The notes under the pieces: model-generated
What the model was told of the DNA's origin: nothing
What the model saw: the letters and a program-made list of their open reading frames with translations, nothing else
The model's database searches: none
From: Gammaproteobacteria bacterium
GTDB taxonomy: Bacteria; Pseudomonadota; Gammaproteobacteria; S012-40
Assembly (NCBI GenBank): GCA_015487785.1
Contig: WFPC01000029.1
Span: 1 to 64,000 of the forward strand
DNA length: 64,000 nt
Direction: 5' to 3'
Shown here: one piece after another, positions 4,528-63,287 of the stretch
How positions within the stretch are numbered: position 1 is the first letter of the stretch
How the letters are laid out: each line of letters begins with the position of its first letter
Program-made: the position numbers and the translations under genes

Positions 4528-7014
4528 TCAACCCTCCGTCGCTGCGTCGACCTGCCAGATGTGCCGGGCGTATTCACGAATGCTGCGATCACTGGAGAAC
4601 GTGCCCATGTGGGCCACGTTGATGATGGCCTTGTGCCACCATTGCTTCGGTTGGCGGTAGCATTGGTCCACGGCTTGCTGGCAGCGCAGGTAGTCGCGAA
4701 AATCCGCCAGCAACAGGAAATGATCCTGGTTGAGCAGATTGTCCACCAGCGGGTGATAGCGCTCGGGCTCGGCCGGGGAGAAAAAGCCGTTGCGGATCAT
4801 GTCCAGGCACTGGCGTAACTCCGGGTCGCTCTCGTAATAGTCGCGCGCCACATAGTGTGTGCGCAGCTCGCTTGCCTGTGCGGCGGTGAGGCCGAAGATG
4901 AAGATATTGTCCTCGCCCACCTCATTGCCTATTTCGATATTGGCGCCATCCAGGGTGCCTATGGTGAGCGCGCCATTGAGCGCCAGCTTCATGTTGCCGG
5001 TGCCGGAGGCCTCGGTGCCGGCGGTGGAGATCTGCTCCGACAGATCGGCAGCGGGAATGATGATTTCCGCCAGGCTCACATTGTAGTTGGGCAGGAAGAC
5101 CACTTTCAGCCTGTCGCCCACCGCGGGGTCGTTGTTGATGATGTCCGCGACATCGTTGATCAGGCGAATGATGAGCTTGGCCATGGTGTAACTGGGGGCG
5201 GCCTTGCCGCTGAAGATCACCGTGCGAGGTACGATGTCGTCGTCCATGGCGGAGCGAATGCGGTTGTAGCGCGCGATCACATGCAACAGATTGAGCAATT
5301 GGCGCTTGTATTCGTGTATTCGCTTTATTTGCACATCGAACAATGACTGTGTCGAAACCTCGATACCCAGTTGCCTTTGAATGAGCTGGGCGAGCCGTTG
5401 TTTGTTGGCCTGCTTGATCGCCTGGAAGCGTTGCTGAAACGAGGGGTCGGAGGCGTATTCTGTAAGTTGTTCAAGTTTCTCCAGGTGAACCAGCCAGTCG
5501 TTTCCGATGTGCTCGGTGATGAGTCTGGACAGCTTGGGATTGGCCTGGTTCAGCCAGCGTCTTGGGGTGATGCCGTTGGTGACATTGATTATGCGCCCTG
5601 GAAAACAATTGTGAAAATCACGAAACACCTCTTTCTGCAATAGTTCGGTATGCAACTTGGCAACGCCGTTCACCTTGTGGCTGCCGACGATGGCCAGATG
5701 TGCCATGCGTATGCGTTTGGGTGGTCCCTCGTCGATCAATGACATGCGCCGGAGCAGATCCACGTCGCCGGGATGGCAGTGCATCACATGATCGAGGAAG
5801 CGGCGATTGATTTCATAGATGATGCCGAGGTGGCGTGGTAGAAGGCGCTCGAACATGCTGACTGGCCAGGTCTCAAGGGCCTCGGGCATCAGGGTGTGAT
5901 TGGTGTAGCTGAAGGTGCGCGTGGTGATATGCCAGGCTCGTTCCCAGCTCAGGCCGTGCTGATCGAGCAGGATGCGCATAAGCTCGGCTATGGCGATGGC
6001 CGGGTGAGTGTCATTGAGTTGTATGGCCACCTTGTCGGGTAGCTGGTCAAAATCGTCGTGGTATTTCTGGAAGCGTCGCAGGATATCCTGCAGGGAGGCG
6101 CAGACGAAGAAATACTGCTGTTTTAGACGCAGCTCTCGGCCGGCATTGGTATTGTCTGCGGGATAGAGCACCTTGGCTAGGTTTTCCGAGGCGGTCTTTT
6201 CCGCTACCGCCTGGATGTAATCGCCACGATTGAAATACTCCAGGTCGAAGTCGCGCGAGGCGCGAGCCGCCCACAGGCGCATGTTGTTGACCGTGTTGCT
6301 GGCATAGCCGGGGATGGGCGTGTCGTAGGCCATGGCCATGACATCGGTGGTGTCCTGCCAGTCATGGCACAGGCGGCCCCGGGCATCGTGGTAGGCCACC
6401 ACCCTGCCACCAAACTGGACCGGGTAGAGCACTTCCGGGCGGGCGAATTCCCAGGGATTGCCATAGCGCAGCCAGTTGTCGGGGTGTTCCACCTGCTGGC
6501 CGTTCTCGATACTCTGGCGGAAAATGCCGTATTCATAACGTATGCCATAGCCATAGCCGGGCAGGCTGAGAGTGGCGAAGGAATCGAGAAAGCAGGCCGC
6601 CAGTCGGCCCAGGCCGCCGTTGCCCAGGGCGGCATCCTCCTCCATTTCGATCAGTTGCTCGAAATCGATGCCGAGCTGGGCCAGGGCGTGTTCGAATTCC
6701 TCCAGGCAGCCGATATTCATGAGTGCGTTTTTCAAGGCGCGGCCCATGAGAAATTCCAGCGACAGGTAATAGACGCGCTTGACATCCTGTTGGTAATAGC
6801 GACGCATGGTTTCCATCCAGCGTTCGATCAGGCGATCGCGGGTGGCGTGTACCGCCGCGTGCAGCCAGTCGCGCTCGGTGGCGGTGAAACCGTCCTTGCC
6901 CACGTTGTAGATCAGGCGCTTGGCCACTGACTTGCGGATCGAGGCGCTATCCAGCCCCAGGCGATCGAAGCGCAGACGCCCGGGGCGTTTGATTGTGCTC
7001 TGGGCCATTGCCAT
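4528..7014 (-). CDS. glgP: glycogen/starch/alpha-glucan phosphorylase
   Basis: 828 aa; EASGTGNMKLALNGALTIGTLDGANIEI PLP-site region. Confidence 0.95.
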   Translation of the reverse strand: MAMAQSTIKRPGRLRFDRLGLDSASIRKSVAKRLIYNVGKDGFTATERDWLHAAVHATRDRLIERWMETMRRYYQQDVKRVYYLSLEFLMGRALKNALMNIGCLEEFEHALAQLGIDFEQLIEMEEDAALGNGGLGRLAACFLDSFATLSLPGYGYGIRYEYGIFRQSIENGQQVEHPDNWLRYGNPWEFARPEVLYPVQFGGRVVAYHDARGRLCHDWQDTTDVMAMAYDTPIPGYASNTVNNMRLWAARASRDFDLEYFNRGDYIQAVAEKTASENLAKVLYPADNTNAGRELRLKQQYFFVCASLQDILRRFQKYHDDFDQLPDKVAIQLNDTHPAIAIAELMRILLDQHGLSWERAWHITTRTFSYTNHTLMPEALETWPVSMFERLLPRHLGIIYEINRRFLDHVMHCHPGDVDLLRRMSLIDEGPPKRIRMAHLAIVGSHKVNGVAKLHTELLQKEVFRDFHNCFPGRIINVTNGITPRRWLNQANPKLSRLITEHIGNDWLVHLEKLEQLTEYASDPSFQQRFQAIKQANKQRLAQLIQRQLGIEVSTQSLFDVQIKRIHEYKRQLLNLLHVIARYNRIRSAMDDDIVPRTVIFSGKAAPSYTMAKLIIRLINDVADIINNDPAVGDRLKVVFLPNYNVSLAEIIIPAADLSEQISTAGTEASGTGNMKLALNGALTIGTLDGANIEIGNEVGEDNIFIFGLTAAQASELRTHYVARDYYESDPELRQCLDMIRNGFFSPAEPERYHPLVDNLLNQDHFLLLADFRDYLRCQQAVDQCYRQPKQWWHKAIINVAHMGTFSSDRSIREYARHIWQVDAATEG

Positions 7015-9044: not shown

Positions 9045-9830
9045 ATGAGTAGCGAGCTTGGCCGGGAACGCATCATTCATCGCAGCCGTGACGAGTTCGG
9101 TGAACTGACCGTCACCGACGGCGATTTCTTTCGCACCCTCTATTTTGGCAACCGCGACAAGCAGAGCTGCATGTTGCGGGATCAGCCGCACATCCTCACC
9201 CTGAAATATACCCAGGTCATGGCCAGTGCCCTGCTGTTCAAGCGGCATCCCGAGCGTGTGCTGGTGCTGGGCCTGGGTGGGGGGTCCTTGCCCAAGTTCT
9301 TCCTGCATGCCTGTCCACACACTCGGGTAGACGTGGTGGAGAGTCGTCCGGCGGTTATCCGGCTGGCCCATGAGTTCTTCCAGGTGCCACGTAAGCATCC
9401 CCGCCTGCGCGTGTTGCAGGGCGATGGCGAGGCCTTTGTCGAGAATCTTACCGGAGACAGGCCATACGACATGATGTTCGTGGATATCTTCGACAGTACC
9501 GGTCCTGCCGCAGCCCTGTCGCGGGAGCGTTTTCTGACCACCTGCTATGAGAGCCTGTCCGGCGATGGGGTATTGTGTCTCAATCTCTGGAATCGCACGG
9601 TGGACGACTTCGATCAGCGCTTCCGTCGTCTGGGACGCTTGTTCCCCGTGCGCCCTCTGAAACTGGTACTGGAACGGATCAACGGCAATGTGCTGGTGTT
9701 CGTATTGCGTGATCCTGCCCGGCTCGATGGGCTGGGCGGTCTGCGACCACAGGCCCTGGCCCTGCAGCACGAGCTGGGAATCAAAAGCCTGGAGCACTTG
9801 CGCTGGTTGCGTCAGCAGAATGCCTTGTGA
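9045..9830 (+). CDS. spermidine synthase-like methyltransferase-fold protein
   Basis: RVLVLGLGGGSLPKFFL, VDVVESRPAVIRLA, LRVLQGDGEAFV, YDMMFVDIFD motifs. Confidence 0.8.
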   Translation: MSSELGRERIIHRSRDEFGELTVTDGDFFRTLYFGNRDKQSCMLRDQPHILTLKYTQVMASALLFKRHPERVLVLGLGGGSLPKFFLHACPHTRVDVVESRPAVIRLAHEFFQVPRKHPRLRVLQGDGEAFVENLTGDRPYDMMFVDIFDSTGPAAALSRERFLTTCYESLSGDGVLCLNLWNRTVDDFDQRFRRLGRLFPVRPLKLVLERINGNVLVFVLRDPARLDGLGGLRPQALALQHELGIKSLEHLRWLRQQNAL

Positions 9831-49898: not shown

Positions 49899-50284
49899 GC
49901 GTGGCCTGGCTGGAGCAGGTACGATGGAGCGAGGCCGGCCTGGTGCCCGTCATCGCCCAGGATGCCCACAGCGGGCGCGTCCTGATGCTGGCCTGGATGA
50001 ATCGCGAAGCCCTGCTGGAGACCGCGCGCAGCGGCCAGGCGGTGTACTGGTCGCGCTCGCGGGGCCGCCTGTGGCGCAAGGGCGAGAGTTCCGGCCATCG
50101 GCAACAGGTGGTGGACATCCGCCTGGACTGCGATGGCGACGCCATCCTGCTGCAGGTGGAGCAGCGTGGCGGCATTGCCTGTCACACCGGGCGCGAGAGC
50201 TGTTTCTACCGTGGTCTGCGCGATGAGGCCTGGCAAACCCTGGACGCGGTGATCAAGTCACCGGACGAGATCTATTCATCATGA
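49895..50284 (+). CDS. hisI: phosphoribosyl-AMP cyclohydrolase
   Basis: [47 protein letters not shown] start. Confidence 0.95.
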
Positions 50285-50601
50285 GCGACATACTGGAACG
50301 ATTGGCAGCGGTGCTGGAACAACGCAAGAGTGCCGCTCCCGACAGCTCCTACGTGGCGGGCCTGTACCACAAGGGGCTGGATGAAATACTGAAAAAACTC
50401 GGCGAGGAAGCGGCGGAGACACTCATTGCCGCCAAGAACGGCGAGCCGGAGCAGATCATCTACGAAACCGCGGATCTGTGGTTCCACAGCCTGGTGCTGT
50501 TGGCCCAGCAAGGCCTGGGGCCGGGGCAGGTGCTGGCCGAGCTGGAACGCCGTTTCGGCCTGTCCGGGCTGGAGGAAAAGGCGGCGCGCGGAGGCGACTG
50601 A
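50281..50601 (+). CDS. hisE: phosphoribosyl-ATP diphosphatase
   Basis: [31 protein letters not shown]. Confidence 0.95.
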
Positions 50602-50664: not shown

Positions 50665-50928
50665 ATGGGTGGAATTAGCATTTGGCAACTGCTGATCATC
50701 TTGCTGATCGTGCTGGTCCTGTTCGGCGCCAAGAAACTGCGCACCCTGGGTGGCGACCTGGGTTCGGCGGTCAAGGGTTTCCGCAATGCGATGAAGGAAG
50801 GCGAGGAAGACGAGATTGCCAAAACCCCCAAGGGCCAGTTGGAACAACAGGACAAGGGGCAGGTGATCAACGTCGAGGTCAGCAAGGAACAGGAAACCGC
50901 TTCTCCGCAGGACAAGGACAAGGCCTGA
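50665..50928 (+). CDS. tatA: Sec-independent protein translocase subunit TatA
   Basis: [43 protein letters not shown]. Confidence 0.96.
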
Positions 50929-50967: not shown

Positions 50968-51345
50968 ATGTTTGACATCGGATTCTGGGAAATCACCCTG
51001 ATCTGCGTGGTGGCCCTGCTGGTGGTGGGCCCGGAACGTTTCCCCGGTTTGGTGCGGGGTGCGGGTTATTGGCTGGGCCGTTTCCGGCAGATGGCCAGCA
51101 ACATGAAGGCGGAATTCCAGGCCGAACTGGACAAGGCCGAGCAGCTCAAGCGCCTGATGGAAGAGCAGGAAGAAATCATGCAGCGGCACATCCTGCCGCC
51201 AGACGAGGTGGTGGGCGAGGAGGACGAGGCCGCGCGCAAGCCACGGCCGGTGGCGGCCTCCGGCAGCCCGCCCAGCCCCGTTGCCGGTGAGCGTTCCGGT
51301 GGCGAGAGCGACAGCAAAGATGTAGACCGTGAGCGAAAAGCCTAA
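50968..51345 (+). CDS. tatB: Sec-independent protein translocase subunit TatB
   Basis: [40 protein letters not shown]. Confidence 0.95.
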
Positions 51346-52183
51346 ACTGCCTCCCCATACCCAGGACATGCCCCTGGTCGCTCACCTGGTGGAGCTGCGC
51401 GACCGCCTGCTGCGCGCCATTGCCGCGGTATTGGTGATTTTCCTGGTTCTGATCCCTTTCGCCAACGAACTCTACACCGCTCTGGCCGAGCCCCTGATGG
51501 CGCATTTGCCGGAGAACAACTCCATGATCGCCACGGAAGTGGCCTCGCCCTTTCTCACGCCCTTCAAGCTGACCCTGGTCTTGTCCATTTTTCTGGCCAT
51601 GCCGTTTCTGCTCTACCAGGTATGGGCCTTCGTGGCCCCGGGGCTCTACCGGCACGAAAAACGCCTGATGATGCCCCTACTGGTATCCAGCACCGTCTTG
51701 TTCTACGGCGGGGCGGCGTTTGCCTACTTCGTGGTGTTTCCGGTGGTATTCGGTTTCTTCACCAGTGTGGCGCCCGAGGGCGTGGCGGTGATGACCGACA
51801 TCAGCAAATACCTCGATTTCGTGCTGAAGATGTTCTTTGCCTTCGGCCTGGCCTTCGAAGTGCCCATTGCCACCATCGCCCTGGTGTGGATGGGGGTGAC
51901 CACGCCCGAGGCCCTGGCGGCCAAGCGTCCCTACATCATCATCGCCGCCTTCGTGCTGGGCATGTTGCTGACACCACCGGACGTGATCTCCCAAAGCCTG
52001 CTGGCGGTGCCCATGATCCTGTTGTTCGAGCTGGGTCTGTTCTTCTCCCGCATCGTGTTGCGCCAGCGTCGGCAGCGCGAGGCTGAGGAGGCCGGGGACG
52101 ACGAGCTGGAACAGGAATTCGAGCGTGCCCGCCGCGAGGAAGCCGGCCTGAACGAAGACGCCTCGCGCGACAAGGACGCCTGA
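51329..52183 (+). CDS. tatC: Sec-independent protein translocase subunit TatC
   Basis: [37 protein letters not shown]. Confidence 0.97.
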
Positions 52184-52201: not shown

Positions 52202-53392
<1,191 letters not shown>

Positions 53393-53520
53393 ACCGGATT
53401 CCCCGTTGCGAGGGGGTAGGTTCGCACACTCACCGGGCATGTTCAAACGTGCCCGGGCATCGCTGGATTTCGTCGGGCGGATTACGCATGATCAGAGTTT
53501 TCGGCGAGGAGGAATGAGCC

Positions 53521-54279
53521 ATGGTTGCCTTGCATGAACTGGTGTCGCACTGCGACACGTTGCTGGAGGTGGAGCGCTTCAAGGACTACTGTCCCAATGG
53601 TCTGCAAGTCGAGGGACGTGCCCAGGTGGGCAGAATCCTGCTGGGGGTGACGGCCTCGCAGGCCCTGATCGACAGGGCGGTGGCCCTGGACGTGGACGCG
53701 GTATTGGTGCATCACGGATTTTTCTGGAAGGGCGAGGCGCAGCCCATCGTCGGCATCAAGGCGCGGCGCATCGGTGCCCTGATGCGGGCCAATATCAGTC
53801 TGCTGGCCTATCACCTACCCCTGGATGCCCATCCCGAGCTGGGCAACAATTACCAGCTTGCGGAACGGCTGGGATTTGAAGTGGAAGGTGTGTTTGGCCG
53901 CATAGGCGAGATCGAGATCGGGCTCTACGGCAAGCTGGCATCGCCCATGAGCGGCGAGAAGTTGGCACTACATATCAGCGAAAAACTTCAGCGCGACCCC
54001 GTCCATATTGCAGCCTGTCCGCGTCCTCTGCGGAAAATCGCCTGGTGCACCGGGGGGGCGCAGAGCTATTTCGAGGCGGCCATTGGTTTGGGTGTGGATG
54101 CCTTTGTCACCGGCGAGATTTCCGAGCCCAATTATCATCTGGCGCTGGAGCACGAAGTGGATTTCTTTGCCGCCGGTCACAATGCCACGGAGCGCTATGG
54201 CGTGCAGGCGCTGGGAAACTATTTGTCGAAACGTTTCGATGTGCAATGCACTTTTTTCGAGCTTGCCAACCCGGCCTGA
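53521..54279 (+). CDS. Nif3-like dinuclear metal center protein (YbgI family)
   Basis: DYCPNGLQVEGRAQVGRILLGVTASQALIDRAVALDVDAVLVHHGFFW. Confidence 0.92.
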   Translation: MVALHELVSHCDTLLEVERFKDYCPNGLQVEGRAQVGRILLGVTASQALIDRAVALDVDAVLVHHGFFWKGEAQPIVGIKARRIGALMRANISLLAYHLPLDAHPELGNNYQLAERLGFEVEGVFGRIGEIEIGLYGKLASPMSGEKLALHISEKLQRDPVHIAACPRPLRKIAWCTGGAQSYFEAAIGLGVDAFVTGEISEPNYHLALEHEVDFFAAGHNATERYGVQALGNYLSKRFDVQCTFFELANPA

Positions 54280-54427
54280 AGCGCGTCAGCCCTAAGCGGG
54301 AAAAATCTTTTCAGATCAATGGTGGTAGTGGGAATGATTGCGCTTTCGTTTTGTTTTCAATTCACTAAATCAGTGATTTCTAATATTTTTTTAGGCATTA
54401 TTTTGGTGCAAAAACCCAGCAAAATAA

Positions 54428-54477
54428 TTGACAACTTCCGTTGACAATGCGCTTTTGGATGGTCTAGCATCGGGACC
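54428..54477 (+). promoter_or_regulatory. putative promoter region of the act operon with tandem TTGACA boxes
   Basis: aaTTGACAacttccgTTGACAatgcgcttttggatggTCTAGCAT in an AT-rich intergenic region. Confidence 0.45.
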
Positions 54478-54519
54478 AATAGAATCTTTTGATGGCTAAT
54501 TTGAGCCAATTAATGATAC

Positions 54520-54535
54520 ATCAGAATATTCTGAT
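54520..54535. promoter_or_regulatory. 16-bp perfect palindrome upstream of the act operon
   Basis: ATCAGAATATTCTGAT. Confidence 0.6.
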
Positions 54536-54573
54536 ATAGAGATTTTGCATTGTTTCTTTGAGGGAGGAAATCA

Positions 54574-54636
54574 ATGAATCAGTCCGCGGCGGCTCTGCCC
54601 GCTCTCCTGGATGCTGGGAGTCTAGTCACTCGTTAG
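54574..54636 (+). CDS. putative 20-codon leader/upstream ORF with strong RBS
   Basis: AGGGAGGAAATCA-ATG; MNQSAAALPALLDAGSLVTR-TAG. Confidence 0.35.
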   Translation: MNQSAAALPALLDAGSLVTR

Positions 54637-54673
54637 CTGGGTGAGTCAATCACCGTTTTGTTGCGCTTCTACT

Positions 54674-54705
54674 GCAGAATGATTCTGCGGAGGGGTGGTT
54701 TTTTT
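54674..54705 (+). other. hairpin and T-run in the actA leader
   Basis: GCAGAA-tga-TTCTGC followed 10 nt later by TTTTTTT. Confidence 0.4.
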
Positions 54706-54756
54706 CTTTTGTGTTGCACAGGAAGTTTGTCAGCTTCAACCAATCGAGGTAAGGAA

Positions 54757-55407
54757 ATGCAATTTGCGAACCGAACCAGTCTGAATAATGCCGCTGCTGT
54801 CAGCATTAGAAGATTGCAGGCGAAATTAGTTCAATGCGGCAAGCCGTTCTACCTGCTGATGGCGCTTGCCGTCATGGCCTTGCTGCCGCTGACGGCCATG
54901 GCCGAGCTGCCGGTGCCCAGTCACATCACCCCGCCGCCGGGCGAGCACGAGGGCGAGCACGTGCCGCAGCCCATCGAGTTTCCGCACGACCGGCACGTGA
55001 AAGACATGAAGATCAATTGCATGTATTGCCACACCTATGCGCGTCGCAGCAAGGTGGCCGGTATTCCTCCCACCAGCAAGTGCATGGGATGCCACAAGGT
55101 GATCGCCACCGATCGGCCGCGCATCCAGAAGCTGACCGAATACTGGGAGAAAGGCGAGTCGCCGCGCTGGAAGAAGGTGCACGACGTACCTGACTACGTT
55201 CATTTCACCCACGAGAAACACATTCGCAAGTTCGTTTTCGATGCCGACTTTCCGGTGGAGGACGTGCAGCAGGTGTGCGGTGTCTGTCATGGCGAGGTTC
55301 GCGAGATGACGGTGGCGGAGAAGAAAAAACCGCTGAACATGGGTTTCTGTCGTCGGTGTCATGAGGCCAATGGCGGTCCTGGCGATTGCTGGAAGTGTCA
55401 TAAATAA
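54757..55407 (+). CDS. actA: Alternative Complex III pentaheme cytochrome c subunit ActA
   Basis: five CXXCH motifs (CMYCH, CMGCH, CGVCH, CRRCH, CWKCH); N-terminal TM/signal; operon context. Confidence 0.88.
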   Translation: MQFANRTSLNNAAAVSIRRLQAKLVQCGKPFYLLMALAVMALLPLTAMAELPVPSHITPPPGEHEGEHVPQPIEFPHDRHVKDMKINCMYCHTYARRSKVAGIPPTSKCMGCHKVIATDRPRIQKLTEYWEKGESPRWKKVHDVPDYVHFTHEKHIRKFVFDADFPVEDVQQVCGVCHGEVREMTVAEKKKPLNMGFCRRCHEANGGPGDCWKCHK

Positions 55408-55445
55408 GGCCGTGCTCTCGAGCAGAGAATGAACTGAGGATAAGG

Positions 55446-57659
55446 ATGAGCAAGATGAAAAGCGTAAAGATCGATCGCCGCAGCTTCTTGAAGATGCTCG
55501 GCTGGGGTGGTGCCGGCACGGCCCTGGCGGGATGTGACTTGCCGACCACCGTTACCCTGGAGGAAGGCAAGGAAGAAGTCGTTTCCTATCTGATGCCGGA
55601 GGAATACGTGATTCCCGGTATCGGCGTGTGGTATGCCTCGACCTGCCTGCAATGCGATGCGGGTTGTGGCCTGCATGGACGGGTGCGCGAGGGGCGGGTG
55701 TTGAAGCTGGAAGGCAATCCCGATTCCCCCATCAACCACGGCAAGACCTGCATGATGGGGCAGGCCGGCGTCCAGGCCCATTACAATCCCGACCGCGTTA
55801 CCTCACCCATGCTGCGCAAGAACGGCACGCTGCAAGCGGTGAGCTGGGACGAAGCCCTGTCTGAACTCAATGGCCGGCTTGGCGCGGTCAGTGGTGATCG
55901 CTTTGCCATGGTCACCGGTACCGTCAGTGGGCATCAGGCGGTGCTGGTCTCGGCTCTGATGGAGCAGATGGGCTCCAGCAATCACTTCGCCCACGAGACC
56001 ATCAACGCCAGGGTCTGGCGTCAGGTGTGCGAGGACATGCTGGGTGATCCCATGCCGCGCCTGCGCCTGGACAAGGCCCAGGTGATCCTGTCTTTCGGGG
56101 CCGATTTTCTGGGCACTTGGCTGTCGCCGGTGCACATGGCCACCGAATATGCCAAGTTCCGCTCCGCGCCGCGTGGCATGCTGGTGCAGATCGAACCCAA
56201 GATGACGCTGACCGGCGGCAATGCCGATCTGTGGCTGCCGGCGCGACCGGGCACAGAGGGTGCGCTTGCCCTGGGTATCGCCAATTTCGTCATCGAGCGC
56301 GGCTGGAACAAGGTCAATGTTACGCCGAATGTGCGTCGAGCCCTGGCCGAATACGATCTGCCCAAGGTGGAGGAGATCACTGGCATTCCCGTCAGCAAGA
56401 TCAAGCGCATCGCCAGCCTGTTGAGCGAGCGTTCCCCGGCTCTGGTGTTGGCAGGGGCCTCGGCGGCGGGTTTCGAGGATGGCTACGAATCGGTGGCCGC
56501 GGCCATGTTGCTCAACATTATCGTCGGCGCGGTGGGCGAGACCATCGAGGCGTCCGCCCAATTTCCCGAGGCGGCGCTTTTGGCCAGGCAGGGCAGTACC
56601 GCCGATCTGATCAAGTTCGCCAAGGGCCTGGAGAACAAGGCCTTCGATGTGGTGCTGTTCGCCAACACCAACCCGGTGTACACCGCGCCTGAGGCTCTGG
56701 GGCTGGAGAAGGGGCTGGCCGAGGTGGGTTTCAAGGTCGCAATGACCCAGTTCCCCGACGAGACCGCCATGCTGGCCGACCTGGTGCTGCCGCTGGCTTC
56801 GCCACTGGAGGACTGGGGAACCCATGTGGCGGCCTACCAGGCCGGTGGTGATCCGGTGATCAGCGTGCAGCAGCCGCTGATGGAGCCCATTCACAAGGAC
56901 GTGCGGGGTTTCGGCGATGTGATGCTGGGCCTGCTCAAGGCGCGCAACAAGGAATTCGAGCAGTTTGCCGACTACTATGCCTACCTGAAGACGGCCATGC
57001 TGAACATGCCGGGGTTGGCGGACAAGGACAACAAGAACGATGCCGCCTGGAACAACCTGTTGCAGAAAGGCTTGCTCAGCGCCAAGCCGGCCAAGGGCAA
57101 GCTGAGCATCAAGGCGCATACGGTGGAAGTGGCGGGTTACCAGCATTCCAAGGAATATCCGCTGCATCTGGTGCCTTCGGCGCGGCTGGGTCTGTGGGAC
57201 GGCCGTCACGCCAACATCCCCTGGTTGCAGGAAGCGCCGGACCAGATCGCCAAGGTGGTATGGGACTCTTGGGCCGAGCTGCATCCCAAGACCGCCCATG
57301 AGCTGGGTGTCAAGAACGGTGACATCATCCGGGTGAGCTCGGCCAGTGGCAGTATCGAGACCCAGGTCTATATCCACAAGGGCGTGCACCCCGACGTGGT
57401 GGCCGTGCCCATGGGGCAGGGACATACCGCCTATGGTCGCTATGCCAAGAATCGCGGCGCCAACCCGCTGAAGGTGCTCAATCCCATCACGGACAAGAAG
57501 ACCGGTGAGCTGGCAACCCATGCCACGCGGGTGAAAGTGAGCAAGGTTCCGCGCAAGAACATTCTGGTGAAGATGGGTGGCAGTGAAACGCAGATGGGGC
57601 GTCCGCTGGTCAGAACCGTATCTGCCGATCAGTTCCGACGTACTGAAGGGGAGGGCTAA
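55446..57659 (+). CDS. actB1: Alternative Complex III molybdopterin-oxidoreductase-like subunit (ActB1)
   Basis: Tat-like RRSFLK signal with LAGC lipobox; CLQCDAGC...C motif; molybdopterin oxidoreductase fold; separate from the Fe-S subunit. Confidence 0.87.
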   Translation: MSKMKSVKIDRRSFLKMLGWGGAGTALAGCDLPTTVTLEEGKEEVVSYLMPEEYVIPGIGVWYASTCLQCDAGCGLHGRVREGRVLKLEGNPDSPINHGKTCMMGQAGVQAHYNPDRVTSPMLRKNGTLQAVSWDEALSELNGRLGAVSGDRFAMVTGTVSGHQAVLVSALMEQMGSSNHFAHETINARVWRQVCEDMLGDPMPRLRLDKAQVILSFGADFLGTWLSPVHMATEYAKFRSAPRGMLVQIEPKMTLTGGNADLWLPARPGTEGALALGIANFVIERGWNKVNVTPNVRRALAEYDLPKVEEITGIPVSKIKRIASLLSERSPALVLAGASAAGFEDGYESVAAAMLLNIIVGAVGETIEASAQFPEAALLARQGSTADLIKFAKGLENKAFDVVLFANTNPVYTAPEALGLEKGLAEVGFKVAMTQFPDETAMLADLVLPLASPLEDWGTHVAAYQAGGDPVISVQQPLMEPIHKDVRGFGDVMLGLLKARNKEFEQFADYYAYLKTAMLNMPGLADKDNKNDAAWNNLLQKGLLSAKPAKGKLSIKAHTVEVAGYQHSKEYPLHLVPSARLGLWDGRHANIPWLQEAPDQIAKVVWDSWAELHPKTAHELGVKNGDIIRVSSASGSIETQVYIHKGVHPDVVAVPMGQGHTAYGRYAKNRGANPLKVLNPITDKKTGELATHATRVKVSKVPRKNILVKMGGSETQMGRPLVRTVSADQFRRTEGEG

Positions 57660-57661
57660 GC

Positions 57662-58510
57662 ATGTCCTTTAAGAATATTCTGGAGAATTTTTCGAAATAT
57701 CGCCGTGGTGCCGAGGAAGGCGGCCATCATGAGTACGAACATCGCTGGGGCATGGCCATAGACCTGAACCTGTGTATCGGTTGCAACGCCTGCTCCACCG
57801 CCTGTTATGCCGAGAACAACCTCGCCGTGGTCGGCAAGGACAAGTTCGAGAAGGGGCAGGCCATGCACTGGATGCGTATCGAGCGTTACTGGGACGATGC
57901 CGATGCGGGGCGTGACTTTCCCGAGCAGGGCGCCTTGTTTCTGCCCATGTTGTGTCAGCAATGTGGTGCGGCGACTTGTGAGCCGGTTTGTCCGGTGGCA
58001 GCTACCTACCACACGCCGGATGGCCTGAATGCCCAGGTTTACAACCGGTGTATCGGTTCGCGTTATTGCAACAACAACTGTCCTTTCCGAGTGCGTTATT
58101 TCAATTTCTGGTCCTATTACGAGAGTTCATGGCCGGAACCATTGAATATGCAACTGAATCCGGATTTGTCGGTGCGTGACAAGGGGGTCATGGAGAAATG
58201 TACCTTCTGTGTACAACGCATTCGCACCGCCAAGGACAAGGCGCAGCGAGAGAACCGGGCCATCGTCGATGGCGAGTTTCAGACCGCCTGTGCCCAGGCG
58301 TGTCCCACCGGGGCCATCGTGTTCGGTGACACCATGGACCCGAACAGCCGCGTGACCAAGCTCTGGCAGGAGCACGAGGTCGAACGCGGGCCCTACACTA
58401 GCAAGAAGCCCAAGCAGAATGCGGAGTTGCGTGGTTACCGCATTTTCGAAGAGCTGAATGTGGATCCCTCGATCATGTATCTCGAGCGGGTACGCGAGAC
58501 AGAAGTGTAG
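57662..58510 (+). CDS. actB2: Alternative Complex III ferredoxin-like Fe-S subunit (ActB2)
   Basis: CIGCNACSTAC, CQQCGAATCEPVCP, CIGSRYCNNNCP, CTFC and CAQACP cysteine motifs. Confidence 0.9.
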   Translation: MSFKNILENFSKYRRGAEEGGHHEYEHRWGMAIDLNLCIGCNACSTACYAENNLAVVGKDKFEKGQAMHWMRIERYWDDADAGRDFPEQGALFLPMLCQQCGAATCEPVCPVAATYHTPDGLNAQVYNRCIGSRYCNNNCPFRVRYFNFWSYYESSWPEPLNMQLNPDLSVRDKGVMEKCTFCVQRIRTAKDKAQRENRAIVDGEFQTACAQACPTGAIVFGDTMDPNSRVTKLWQEHEVERGPYTSKKPKQNAELRGYRIFEELNVDPSIMYLERVRETEV

Positions 58511-58551
58511 GACTTTGGCTAGGGCTTGATTAGTTTATAAAAGGAAACGAC

Positions 58552-59991
58552 ATGGCTCAGGTTATTCAAGACAAGATCATTGATGAAAATCTGAAATGGT
58601 CGCAAATCAATCAGGACGTGATCCGTTCCATGCAGGCGCCTGGCAAGGCCTACTGGATCACCTTCGCTGTCTGTGTGGCGATGTTTCTCACCGCCGTGGC
58701 GGCAGAGATCTATCAATACAAGGTGGGCATGGGGGCTGCGGGCCTGAACAATCCGCACATGTGGGACATGTATATCGCCACCTTCGTATTCTGGATCGGC
58801 ATGAGTCACGCGGGAACGCTGTTGTCGGCGATTCTGCACATCATCCATGCCCAGTGGCGCAAACCCATCTACCGTTTCGCCGAGGCGATGACCACCTTCT
58901 CGCTGATGACGGCGGGTTTCTTCCCCATGATCCACCTGGGGCGGGTGTGGAACCTCTACTGGGTGCTGCCCTATGTGAGTGATCGTGGCATCTGGCCGAA
59001 CTTCCGGTCGCCGCTGGTGTGGGACGCCTTCGCCATCAGTACCTATCTGTCGGCATCGGCCCTGTTCCTGGTCATCGGCATGATCCCGGATCTGGCCATT
59101 CTGCGAGACCACACCAAGGGTTGGCGCAAGAAGTTCTATGGCATTCTGGCTCTGGGTTGGCGCGGCGACGACCGCCAATGGCGCAACTTCCGCAAGACCT
59201 ACATGCTGATGGCGTGTTTTCTGATTCCGTTGGCGATCTCGGTGCATTCCATCGTATCGTCCGACTTCGCCATGTCCATCATGCCTGGCTGGCACGTAAC
59301 CACCTTCCCGCCCTATTTCGTGGCAGGTGCGTTGTATTCCGGTTGTGCGGCCATCATGACCCTGTTCATTTGTCTGCGCTACTTCTTCCACATGGAAGAG
59401 TACATGACCAAGAACATCATGGAGAAGACCACCAAGTTGACCTTCGCCATCGCCATGGTGTGGACCTACCTGAACCTGATCGAGTTCGCCTCTACCTGGT
59501 ATGGTCACAACATCTACGACAAGGAGGTGCTCATTTCCAAGGCCACCGGGCCCTATGCGGTGGTGTTCTGGACCATGATCATCTGTGGCTCGGTGGTGCC
59601 GTTCACCCTGTGCTTTCAGAAACTCAGGCGACACATGCCAACCATGTTCGTGGTTTCGTTGCTGTTACAACTGGGGATGTATGTGGAGCGCTGGATGATC
59701 GTGGCGCCGACGCTTTCACAAGCGCATCAGCCGCACCAGTGGGACGTGTTGTGGGCTCCGGTGGTACAGTGGGCCATCGTGTTCGGCAGCTTTGGATGGT
59801 TTGCGCTGTTGTTCCTGGTATTCGTCAAGCTGTTCCCGTCGGTTTCCATGTACGAGGTGAAGGAATTGACCTTCCATCTCCAGCACGAGGCCGAGGAGGA
59901 GAAATGGCTGGCCGATCAAGAAAAGCACGCGACACCTGAGGGTGCACGGGAGAAACCCGTGACAGGTCGTCCAGGATTGGAGGGAGCATAA
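58552..59991 (+). CDS. actC: Alternative Complex III NrfD/PsrC-like membrane subunit ActC
   Basis: 479 aa; multiple TM segments; FWIGMSHAGTLLSAILHIIHAQWRKPIYRFAEAMT. Confidence 0.92.
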   Translation: MAQVIQDKIIDENLKWSQINQDVIRSMQAPGKAYWITFAVCVAMFLTAVAAEIYQYKVGMGAAGLNNPHMWDMYIATFVFWIGMSHAGTLLSAILHIIHAQWRKPIYRFAEAMTTFSLMTAGFFPMIHLGRVWNLYWVLPYVSDRGIWPNFRSPLVWDAFAISTYLSASALFLVIGMIPDLAILRDHTKGWRKKFYGILALGWRGDDRQWRNFRKTYMLMACFLIPLAISVHSIVSSDFAMSIMPGWHVTTFPPYFVAGALYSGCAAIMTLFICLRYFFHMEEYMTKNIMEKTTKLTFAIAMVWTYLNLIEFASTWYGHNIYDKEVLISKATGPYAVVFWTMIICGSVVPFTLCFQKLRRHMPTMFVVSLLLQLGMYVERWMIVAPTLSQAHQPHQWDVLWAPVVQWAIVFGSFGWFALLFLVFVKLFPSVSMYEVKELTFHLQHEAEEEKWLADQEKHATPEGAREKPVTGRPGLEGA

Positions 59992-59993
59992 CA

Positions 59994-60518
59994 ATGAGTA
60001 AGTATCGTTTGCTTGCAATGTTCGATGGATTCGATCCGGCCATCGACACCATCAATGCCATCAAGGCGGAGAAGCTGGCCGGTGTGTCGGTGGACGACAT
60101 CACCGTGATGTCGCCCATCGAACATCCCGACATCGACGAGATTCTGGGCGACCGGCCGGTGAATATCCAGAAATTCACCTTTCTGGGTGCCTTGTTCGGG
60201 GTGACCTTCGGCTTTTTCTTCCTGTCCTCGGCCCAGGCCAGTTTTCTGGTACAGCCCCAGGGCGGCAAGCCGGTCATTCCCTTTCCGAGCAACTTCGTAT
60301 TGATGTACGAAATGCTGATTTTCTTCGGTGTCTGGACCACGGTCTTCGCCTTTTTGTGGATGTCGGGCCTGTTCCGCAAGCGCGGCACGCTCTACAGCGA
60401 AAAGCTGACTGTGGACCAAGTGGGAATCGTAGTTGAGGTCGAGGAGCACCAGTTGGAAAACACGCGTGCCTTTTTCAACGACCACAACGCGCTGGAAATA
60501 CGGGAAGAGAAAGCATAA
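59994..60518 (+). CDS. actD: Alternative Complex III subunit ActD (DUF3341)
   Basis: two TM segments; position between actC and actE; MLAMFDGFDPAIDTINAIKAEKLAGVSVDDITVMSPIEHPDI. Confidence 0.87.
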   Translation: MSKYRLLAMFDGFDPAIDTINAIKAEKLAGVSVDDITVMSPIEHPDIDEILGDRPVNIQKFTFLGALFGVTFGFFFLSSAQASFLVQPQGGKPVIPFPSNFVLMYEMLIFFGVWTTVFAFLWMSGLFRKRGTLYSEKLTVDQVGIVVEVEEHQLENTRAFFNDHNALEIREEKA

Positions 60519-61063
60519 TGAAACTAAGATACTTAGCTTTTATTGGTGCCGCTGCCTTGTTGCCGGCTCAGGTATATGCGTGGCCCTGGTCGACGGACAT
60601 GATGAACCAGCCCAGCATCAAGCCCCAGGAAGGGCCGCCGGCGCCATTTCCTTCGCGCTCGGTGCCGGTATCGGGAATCCCCACCATGGTGGCCGATCGC
60701 CAGGAGGCGGAGAGTTTGAAGAACCCGATTCCGGCGACACCGGAATCCATCAAGACCGGGCGCAACCTGTTCAAGATCTATTGCGCGGCTTGTCATGGCC
60801 TGACCGGCAAGGCGGATTCGCCGGTGTCGGAGAAGATCGGCGCCATCGACCTGACCAGTGATTATGTCCAGGGCATGCTGAGCGAAGGCTGGATATGGGG
60901 AACCATCACCTTTGGTGGCGCCATCATGCCGGCCTATGGCAAGCCCGGCGCCGGGGGCGGTTCCAACGACTTGTCGCCGGAAGAGCGCTGGCATGTGGTC
61001 AATTACGTGCGCAACCAGTTGGTGAAGGATGGCGCAGGAACCGCGACGGCAAGTGCGGAATAA
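60518..61063 (+). CDS. actE: Alternative Complex III monoheme cytochrome c subunit ActE
   Basis: signal peptide; one CXXCH (CAACH); PSIKPQE...P..SVPVSG region; operon context. Confidence 0.88.
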   Translation: MKLRYLAFIGAAALLPAQVYAWPWSTDMMNQPSIKPQEGPPAPFPSRSVPVSGIPTMVADRQEAESLKNPIPATPESIKTGRNLFKIYCAACHGLTGKADSPVSEKIGAIDLTSDYVQGMLSEGWIWGTITFGGAIMPAYGKPGAGGGSNDLSPEERWHVVNYVRNQLVKDGAGTATASAE

Positions 61064-61084
61064 AGAAATTAACAAAGGGTTGGA

Positions 61085-62128
61085 TTGAAAATGGAAAGCT
61101 TTGGAAGCTGGTCGGTATTGACAACAAACTTTCTGGTTATCCTGTACATGGCCATCAACGGGGTTACCTTGGCGTCGCTGCTGCATCTGGCAAATGCAAA
61201 ATGGCGTTTCAAGGTGCGCTTTTTGGCATGTTCGCTGGCAGGATTGTTACCGGTTGCCTTTATTTTGCTCTTGATCCTGCTGTTCAACGGCGAGGCAACC
61301 TTTCCGTGGCTGGCTACTGCGCACGATGATCCGAATCATCACCTGCCGGCATGGCACAACTATACGTTCCTGGTCTCGCGGGAGATTGGCGGCTTCCTGC
61401 TCATTGCCTTGCTCTATGGGCTGTTCATCAAGTATCAGCGCGAAGCCACCATCGACAGCAGCTATGAGGCCCAGCGCCGGTTTCGCAATATTGCCTTGTT
61501 GATACCGTTCGCCTATGTGTTGTATTCCACCATGGTGGCCTGGGATTTCGAAATGACCATGATTCCCAGTTGGCACAGTGCCAGCTACGGGGCCTATCAT
61601 TTCGTGAGCAATTTCCACTTCTTCTTGGCCTTCTTCGCGATCTTCCTGTATTTCGTGGTGAAGTCGGGCAAGCTCAAGGTGGAGGTGCCGCGTTATATCT
61701 TCAACTTTCTGGCCCAGATGATGCTGGCGTTCACCATCCTGTGGACCTACCTCTACTTCACCCAGTACCTGATCATGTGGTACGGGCGTTTGCCGGAGGA
61801 GATCGTGCGTTTCCGCAACATGATGGAGAACGACCTTTCGGTGATCTGGTGGACCTTCCTGGCGATGAAATTCGTGATCCCTTTCACCTCGTTGATCTTC
61901 GCCCGGGTGCGCCACACGCCGATCCTGATCATCCTCGTGGCCACCAGCATTGCGGTGGGCACCTGGCTGGAACGCTATACCTGGATCGCCGGTTCGGTGG
62001 ATCCCGAGTACTATCACCTGCCCATGACCTCGTTCTTCGACATCGTGGTCACGGCGGTGGTGGCGGCGGTGGCCCTGTTCACCATGAAGTGGTCACTCAA
62101 CCGCTACGGCTTGGTCAAGCAATCCTGA
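61085..62128 (+). CDS. actF: Alternative Complex III membrane subunit ActF
   Basis: 347 aa; multiple TM; distant ActC/NrfD-like; last gene of the act operon. Confidence 0.87.
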   Translation: MKMESFGSWSVLTTNFLVILYMAINGVTLASLLHLANAKWRFKVRFLACSLAGLLPVAFILLLILLFNGEATFPWLATAHDDPNHHLPAWHNYTFLVSREIGGFLLIALLYGLFIKYQREATIDSSYEAQRRFRNIALLIPFAYVLYSTMVAWDFEMTMIPSWHSASYGAYHFVSNFHFFLAFFAIFLYFVVKSGKLKVEVPRYIFNFLAQMMLAFTILWTYLYFTQYLIMWYGRLPEEIVRFRNMMENDLSVIWWTFLAMKFVIPFTSLIFARVRHTPILIILVATSIAVGTWLERYTWIAGSVDPEYYHLPMTSFFDIVVTAVVAAVALFTMKWSLNRYGLVKQS

Positions 62129-62155
62129 AAAAAGCGTTAGCTTATGCTATGATGC

Positions 62156-62184
62156 GGGCGGCTGGGAGACTGGCCGCCCGTTTT
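62156..62184 (+). terminator. Rho-independent-like terminator after actF
   Basis: GGGCGGC-tgggagactg-GCCGCCC-GTTTT. Confidence 0.65.
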
Positions 62185-62267
62185 CATGTAGGGGGGCCGG
62201 AAAAGCGCTGAAGGCCTCATTCCGTCGGGTGTGGCCTCCTTGGTTGAGGGTGATGAGAGGATGCACA

Positions 62268-62891
62268 ATGGCAGTTATGGCCAATAAACGTTCGGTAATG
62301 ACATTGTATTCTGGCGCCGTGGATGCCTATAGCCACCGTGCCCGCATCGTGCTGGCGGAAAAAAACGTGACCTATGAGGTGTTGGAGGTGGAACCGGACA
62401 ACCCGCCCCAGGACCTGATCGACCTCAATCCCTACCATTCCGTACCCACCTTGATCGACCGTGACCTGGTGCTCTACAACTCGCGGGTGGTGATGGAATA
62501 TCTCGATGAACGTTTTCCCCATCCGCCACTGATGCCGGTGGACCCGGTCTCCCGCGCCCGGGCGCGGTTGATGTTGCACCAGATCGATGCCGACTGGTAC
62601 AGCCTGTTGGATGACCTGGAGAGTGGCGACGATTCACGCCGGGCCAAGGCCGCCAAGGAATTGCGCGATTCCATCACCTCCATTGCCCCGGCCTTCGAGG
62701 GCAAGCCCTATTTCATGAGCGATGATTTTTCCCTGATAGACTGTAGCATGGCCCCCTTGTTGTGGCGGCTGAAGCGTTTCGGGGTCGAGCTGCCGCGCCA
62801 GGCCGCGCCGGTGAAAGCCTACATGAGCCGCCTGTTCGATCGCCCCAGCTTCCAGGAAAGCCTGACCGAGGCGGAAAAAGAGTTCGTCTGA
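62268..62891 (+). CDS. sspA: stringent starvation protein A
   Basis: GST-fold; SVMTLYSGAVDAYSHRARIVLAEKNVTYEVLEVEPDNPPQDLIDLNPYHSVPTLIDRDLVLYNSRVVMEYLDERFPHPPL. Confidence 0.95.
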   Translation: MAVMANKRSVMTLYSGAVDAYSHRARIVLAEKNVTYEVLEVEPDNPPQDLIDLNPYHSVPTLIDRDLVLYNSRVVMEYLDERFPHPPLMPVDPVSRARARLMLHQIDADWYSLLDDLESGDDSRRAKAAKELRDSITSIAPAFEGKPYFMSDDFSLIDCSMAPLLWRLKRFGVELPRQAAPVKAYMSRLFDRPSFQESLTEAEKEFV

Positions 62892-62900
62892 GCCTGTTGC

Positions 62901-63287
62901 ATGAATGAAGTCAGTATGAGTTCCAGTCGCCCCTATCTGGTGCGGGCGCTCAATGAATGGATCGTGGACAACGGTCTGACTCCCTATATCGTTTGCAATG
63001 CCGGTTATCCAGGTGTTGAAGTGCCACAACACTATGTGGAAAACGGCAAGATCGTGCTCAATATCAGTCCCCAGGCGGTGCAGGGTTTGAGCATGAACAA
63101 CGATGAAACTACTTTTTCCGCCCGCTTCGGCGGCGTGGAGACCTTCGTGCGGGTGCCCATGCTGGCCATCATGGCCATCTATGCCCGTGAGAATGGCCAG
63201 GGCATGGTGTTCGTGGACGAAGGTGGACAACCGCCGCCCGAGCCCGAGCCGGAGCCCCGCAAGCCCAGCCTGAAGCTGGTCACCTGA
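62901..63287 (+). CDS. sspB: ClpXP protease specificity-enhancing factor SspB
   Basis: SSSRPYLVRALNEWIVDNGLTPYIVCNA; VLNISPQAVQGLSMNNDETTFSARFGG. Confidence 0.95.
   Translation: MNEVSMSSSRPYLVRALNEWIVDNGLTPYIVCNAGYPGVEVPQHYVENGKIVLNISPQAVQGLSMNNDETTFSARFGGVETFVRVPMLAIMAIYARENGQGMVFVDEGGQPPPEPEPEPRKPSLKLVT

Follow-up and report, generated by a model that had tools for sequence, protein, structure and literature searches.

How did the genes of an alternative complex III (ACIII) come to occupy a place where the genes of the cytochrome bc1 complex (petABC) are expected, and what became of the latter? The question is raised by positions 1 to 64,000 (forward strand) of contig WFPC01000029.1 in the gammaproteobacterial assembly GCA_015487785.1, a stretch of DNA that is referred to below as the window. 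A complete operon of seven collinear genes, actA-B1-B2-C-D-E-F (54658-62128), is located here between tatABC-degS-nif3 and sspAB. A preliminary description of this DNA, in which all of these genes were correctly placed, proposed that ACIII had replaced bc1 in situ while the flanking gene order was kept. Based on sequence comparison, we consider it quite likely that this split-ActB operon took the place of the native bc1 genes step by step, and that both ACIII and a non-native bc1 would remain in the organism.

The first issue is what the slot originally contained. Among 230 genomes sampled across the class, SspA and a type I-like cytochrome b were both listed in 76 (type I denotes the sspAB-linked bc1). 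The petB gene was found upstream of sspA, on the same strand and within 4 kb, in 74 of these 76 genomes, which agrees with the earlier statement that petABC lies directly upstream of sspAB in many beta- and gammaproteobacteria; in the remaining two, the genes were on different contigs. Moreover, the order degS-nif3-petABC-sspAB is intact in three act-free relatives (G021, G026 and G031), where nif3 is the last gene before petABC. These data support the view that the slot between nif3 and sspAB ancestrally held petABC and that its flanking order has been retained.

The second issue is whether bc1 has been lost. The genome of the window (G000; 2.44 Mb in 63 contigs, 95% complete) contains a single cytochrome b gene, which is located on contig C41 with the Rieske and cytochrome c1 genes adjoining. 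The genome-wide search for petABC suggested in the preliminary description thus ended with one intact operon, and the "clean" non-orthologous replacement of complex III envisaged there has to be given up. The cytochrome b of C41 shares 72-79% identity with the corresponding proteins in other act-bearing genomes of the family and just 50-59% with the sspAB-linked cytochrome b of Gammaproteobacteria; the divergent lineage that it represents is designated type II. In a tree of 83 cytochrome b sequences, type II forms one clade (support 100) and gammaproteobacterial type I another (support 99); the L120 sequence was labeled as act-free gamma type I on this tree, though its act and petABC genes are linked, which leaves the conclusions unchanged. 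The Qo motif is PEWY in all 22 type II sequences and PVWY or PLWY in all 35 gamma type I sequences, while PEWY also occurs in rows from other classes, mainly alpha-like, and PVWY in seven of seven zeta-like rows. Since the bc1 of C41 belongs to a different lineage, the native bc1 would have been displaced at the locus and bc1 as an enzyme is probably retained through a divergent homolog. Two additional observations were made on type II loci. A small open reading frame (L002:8740-9126) lies upstream of the type II Rieske gene, and 9 of 15 type II loci have a homolog in the corresponding position; a CXXCH heme motif is present in at least one of these homologs. In G008 (contigs C3 and C5), G560 (L105) and G563 (L108), cytochrome b of type II is encoded by two or three genes per genome, which may reflect bc1 amplification or mixed metagenome-assembled genomes (MAGs).

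How the displacement proceeded can be approached by comparing the interval between degS-nif3 and sspAB across relatives, as had been recommended, and petABC, act-petABC and act states were all observed. The act operon is carried by all 13 examined genomes of the window's order, and nif3-act-sspAB is found in most of its family. The order act-petABC-sspAB, its bc1 being the native type I, is found in two members of the same family (G005 and G012); in G003 and G010, nif3-act is accompanied by a type I petABC that is separated from act. In G012, contig L101 carries hisE-tat-degS-nif3-actA-B-C-D and contig L070 carries actD-E-F-petABC-sspAB, their ends (both in actD) sharing an exact overlap of 151 bases. 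The act-petABC-sspAB order is also present in other families (L103/G045, L110, L114-L116, L119, L120, L124, L125 and L172/G072), as well as in L117, L118 and L123 as far as these contigs reach. By contrast, act-sspAB without petABC is found in the named MAGs L105-L108 and L122. As separate observations, L116 and L117, both from the MAG HyVt-444, carry two different act-petABC copies (a duplication or a mixed bin), and in four Rhodospirillales MAGs (L160, L163, L165 and L167) act is directly followed by petABC with an alpha-type PEWY cytochrome b. Act may have come to stand beside bc1 genes on separate occasions, or selection may favor this pairing.

In a phylogeny built from concatenated ActB1, B2, C and F, the act-sspAB and act-petABC-sspAB states are intermingled within one clade (support 100/100), and the former needs four to five changes, four of which are forced by supported branches. 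A single loss of petABC was rejected, given that holding the act-sspAB rows together costs 754 log-likelihood units (approximately unbiased (AU) test, p = 3e-90). The gene order and tree point to at least four independent losses of petABC from between act and sspAB. The act tree, which had been suggested as a test for parallel replacements and as a way to the donor, showed these parallel losses but named no donor lineage: gamma act operons are separate from those of the alpha group (100) and from the zeta-like f186/f206 operons, and the operon of Candidatus Tenderia (L152) clusters among the gamma ones. The direction of change is recorded in L122, whose actF-sspA spacer consists of the region downstream of actF, then the last petC codons with a broken frame, and then the native petC-sspA spacer; this petC 3' remnant aligns at 84% over 283 bp with the petC-sspA junction of L119. 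It is a deletion scar, from which the direction of change in the L122 lineage can be told.

Taken together, petABC was ancestrally at the locus, intermediates with both sets of genes exist, and the native type has been lost; the intermediates, the repeated losses and the petC scar support in-place displacement of native petABC by act. The exchange was not a one-step swap, as act first came to lie between nif3 and petABC. The comparison of sequences supports a history in four steps, the second derived mainly from the intermediates. An ancestor would have had tat-degS-nif3-petABC-sspAB; the act operon would then have arrived between nif3 and petABC; at least four lineages, one of them the ancestor of the window's clade, would each have lost petABC from the interval between act and sspAB; and the window's genome and most such lineages would have kept bc1 as a type II (PEWY) petABC elsewhere.

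The identity of the complex is well defined by its genes, all of which are on the plus strand. ActA (54658..55407) is a pentaheme c-type cytochrome with five CXXCH motifs (6f0k_A, 4e-26; 8k9e_A, 1e-26); its listed start is probably too early, the real one lying at about 54850, as relatives align from residue ~66. ActB1 (55446..57659) is molybdoenzyme-like with a Tat-type signal (PF00384, PF04879 and PF01568), and ActB2 (57662..58510) is a four-cluster ferredoxin-like subunit encoded by a separate gene, which matches the C-terminal part of fused ActB (8k9e_B, 2.5e-75; 6f0k_B, 1.2e-74). ActC (58552..59991; 6f0k_C, 3.4e-109) is an NrfD-like membrane subunit, in which H128, S153, D158 and D238 align with the quinone-site residues H139, S164, D169 and D253 of Rhodothermus marinus ActC (PMC8076601). 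ActD (59994..60518) matches PF11821 above the cut-off (5.6e-29), ActE (60518..61063) is a monoheme cytochrome c (PF13442, 1.6e-9; one CXXCH), and ActF (61085..62128; 6f0k_F, 2.4e-24) is a second NrfD-like membrane subunit, for which ATG at 61091 is probably a better start than the listed one. ActA, B1, B2, C and F each match their counterpart chain in solved ACIII structures, and the ActD family, the pentaheme ActA, the ActC quinone site, the monoheme ActE and ActF, all features of ACIII, are present.

Compared with canonical ACIII (R. marinus, Flavobacterium johnsoniae and Roseiflexus/Chloroflexus; 6f0k, 6btm, 6lod and 8k9e), ActA, B, C and F are homologous with strong matches and the quinone-site residues of ActC are conserved, whereas ActB is one fused chain there (6f0k_B, 6lod_B and 8k9e_B) and two genes here. 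ActB1, which matches 6f0k_B and 6lod_B, carries CX2CX3CX27C (C67, C70, C74 and C102), whereas the ActB chains of 6lod, 6f0k and 8k9e have no Cys at these cluster positions. The closest known form, and exactly the one seen here, is the split-ActB ACIII described for the neutrophilic iron oxidizers Ferriphaselus, Sideroxydans, Gallionella and Mariprofundus (PMC4643136), which shares the order A-B1-B2-C-D-E-F, the split ActB and the ActB1 motif and often occurs alongside bc1. The window differs from this form, and from that of Candidatus Tenderia, in that act sits in the petABC slot before sspAB and is accompanied by a non-native type II bc1. ActA, B1 and B2 also match QrcA, QrcB and QrcC of the menaquinone reductase QrcABCD; however, Qrc has four subunits and includes no ActD, ActE or ActF, and the scores are well below the equivalog cut-offs (73/180, 326/440 and 229/400 bits for QrcA, QrcB and QrcC, respectively). 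A working molybdoenzyme was discarded as well, as the alignment with ArrA shows no Cys where the Mo ligand would be. Elsewhere among act loci, tblastn matched ActB1 and ActB2 twice each, in tandem, at about 2773-7700 of L238 (G238, which clusters with Candidatus Tenderia), suggesting a partial actB1-actB2 duplication or a frame problem, and L139 has a second ActC match at 9108, just downstream of a complete act operon with ActC at 5081.

Homology and published work on relatives suggest that ActC would exchange electrons with the quinone/quinol pool, and that ActB2/B1 and ActA/E would pass them between ActC and a periplasmic cytochrome c, which would in turn feed the divergent cbb3-like oxidase encoded in this genome. 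Quinol:cytochrome c oxidoreductase activity is accordingly a prediction from homology. One reading is that ACIII works here solely in the forward direction, as a second complex III that feeds the oxidase. Oxidation of menaquinol by the studied ACIII (PMC8552683) and the conserved quinone-site residues of ActC favor it; against it, a split ActB with the cluster motif in ActB1 is what iron oxidizers and Tenderia have, and there expression ties the complex to reverse transport. In Sideroxydans ES-1, Fe(II) strongly induces act, to which a role in reverse transport has been assigned (PMC8788666), and in Candidatus Tenderia the expression of ACIII clusters with complex I and that of bc1 with the cbb3 oxidase and complex II (PMC5371394). 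We regard an exclusively forward role as falling just short of an even chance. Reverse (uphill) use is possible, and electrons would be about equally likely to run in either direction in this organism. With a bc1 also encoded, a division of labor is plausible, and the tasks are probably shared out between ACIII and the type II bc1.

Which bc1 type is kept by act-bearing genomes shows a clear pattern. Genomes with act-petABC-sspAB have type I only, the act-sspAB genomes L105-L108 have type II only, and L122, also act-sspAB, gave no cytochrome b match; the two types did not occur together in any act genome examined. Across the class sample, 13 of 25 act-positive genomes had type II, against 2 of 205 act-negative ones (Fisher 9e-13, kinship ignored). 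No cytochrome b match was obtained in six act genomes of this sample (G116, G227, G078, G200, G147 and G197) and in 13 named act MAGs, the named MAGs without such a match including L166, L169, L171, L133, L134, L143, L144, L147, L150, L154 and L156. Such genomes are better candidates than the window for a true replacement of bc1 by ACIII. In one lineage, which comprises L166, L169, L171 and the f105 genomes G116 (L241) and G227 (L242), the latter two among the six, the act operon has the opposite orientation, standing beside degS and diverging from sspAB; these genomes, in which no cytochrome b match was obtained, are candidates for full replacement of bc1 by ACIII.

Several points weigh against the proposed history or parts of it. 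The act tree stands in for a species tree and is not genome-wide, and a pet remnant was sought in the window's own act-sspA spacer and none was found. Most of the genomes are MAGs, whose incompleteness inflates absences and makes the absence of a gene weaker evidence than its presence. A sign test of the coupling between type I loss and type II presence had just one or two informative pairs, the independent changes being too few for a phylogenetic test of the association, and the gain of type II could have preceded or followed the loss of type I. The origin of type II is similarly two-sided. The free cytochrome b tree, which places type II on the alphaproteobacterial side (support 87), and the PEWY motif suggest an alphaproteobacterial donor; grouping type II with gamma type I was not rejected by the AU test (p = 0.63), the constrained tree being equally good or slightly better. 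Type II might thus be an ancient gammaproteobacterial duplicate that was not acquired from another class. Against this stand its position in the free tree, the PEWY motif, which every alpha row shares but neither gamma type I nor the zeta-like rows show, and its best identity outside its own clade, which is 60-63% to genomes of other classes vs. 52-59% to gamma type I; we treat an ancient duplicate as a serious but less favored possibility.

The other alternatives bear on the displacement itself. The native petABC might have moved elsewhere, with act filling the gap and no exchange of bc1, and a full petABC operon is indeed found elsewhere in G000; however, the C41 cytochrome b resembles that of other act genomes far more than the sspAB-linked gamma one, and its separate clade and different Qo motif rule out a relocated native operon unless extreme divergence followed relocation, which renders this explanation very improbable. 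That ACIII has left no bc1-kind complex III in this genome is in keeping with the act-filled slot and with act-bearing relatives that lack a cytochrome b match, but is hardly credible given the complete petA, petB and petC on C41 (barring a misbinned contig) and the type II clade throughout the sister genomes. Equally hard to accept is an older act-sspAB into which petABC was later inserted in some lineages, for although act-tree parsimony alone cannot separate gain from loss, petABC-sspAB adjacency is class-wide in act-free genomes, the act-linked petABC is native gamma type I, and L122 has a decayed petC stub.

A promoter-like site (TTGACA-18-TAGCAT, 10/12; 54441..54470, plus strand) lies upstream of actA, the count of such sites across the region being not above that in shuffles, and a strong terminator-like hairpin (62154..62181, plus strand; 12 pairs, nine of them G-C) follows actF, within the 100-140 bp stretch where relatives carry petABC. 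Because of these two elements, act is probably its own transcription unit. With regard to the flanks, hisE (50281..50601, plus strand; PF01503, 5.4e-20) forms the outer left border of the conserved block and is followed by tatA-like and tatB-like open reading frames identified by eye (50665-50928 and 50968-51345), tatC (51329..52183, plus strand; PF00902, 3.9e-70), a degS/HtrA-type protease gene with a PDZ domain on the minus strand (52202..53446; PF13365 and PF13180) and nif3/DUF34 (53521..54279, plus strand; PF01784, 4.8e-67), the last gene 5' of the act operon. On the right are sspA (62229..62891, plus strand; NF007016, 1.2e-93), for which ATG at 62268 is probably a better start than the listed one, and sspB (62901..63287, plus strand; PF04386, 1.5e-33). 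Near the contig start, a 175-aa protein (166-693) matches just the C-terminal third of COX1 (PF00115, 1.2e-15); a similar short COX1-like piece adjoins the cbb3-like oxidase on contig C18.

It is already known that ACIII exists in a split form, that it can accompany bc1 and that some bc1-less genomes have it. In Gallionellaceae nitrite oxidizers, ACIII stands in for bc1 genome-wide (ACIII 100%, bc1 7.7%), as reported in a passage of PMC10734462 that gives no locus-level history; the window's genome, by contrast, retains a bc1. In the literature searched, which did not include subscription papers, we found no paper on displacement at the petABC-sspAB locus or on a type I/type II exchange, and neither the history of the locus nor the exchange of bc1 appears to have been described there. 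The usual basis for inferring a swap of a core respiratory complex is presence and absence alone. In this case, the states before, during and after the change survive at one locus in living lineages, together with a scar and several parallel losses, so that they reveal directly in which order the events took place. A possible explanation, advanced tentatively and, in our view, nearly as apt to be right as wrong, is that ACIII beside a native bc1 makes type I petABC dispensable, and that repeated deletion would lead either to ACIII alone or to ACIII plus a second, PEWY-type bc1 elsewhere, both complexes being specialized, for instance with one working uphill and the other downhill. The finding suggests that ACIII and the kind of bc1 retained by a cell may be linked, which can be tested and is relevant to the unsettled role of ACIII where bc1 is present as well.

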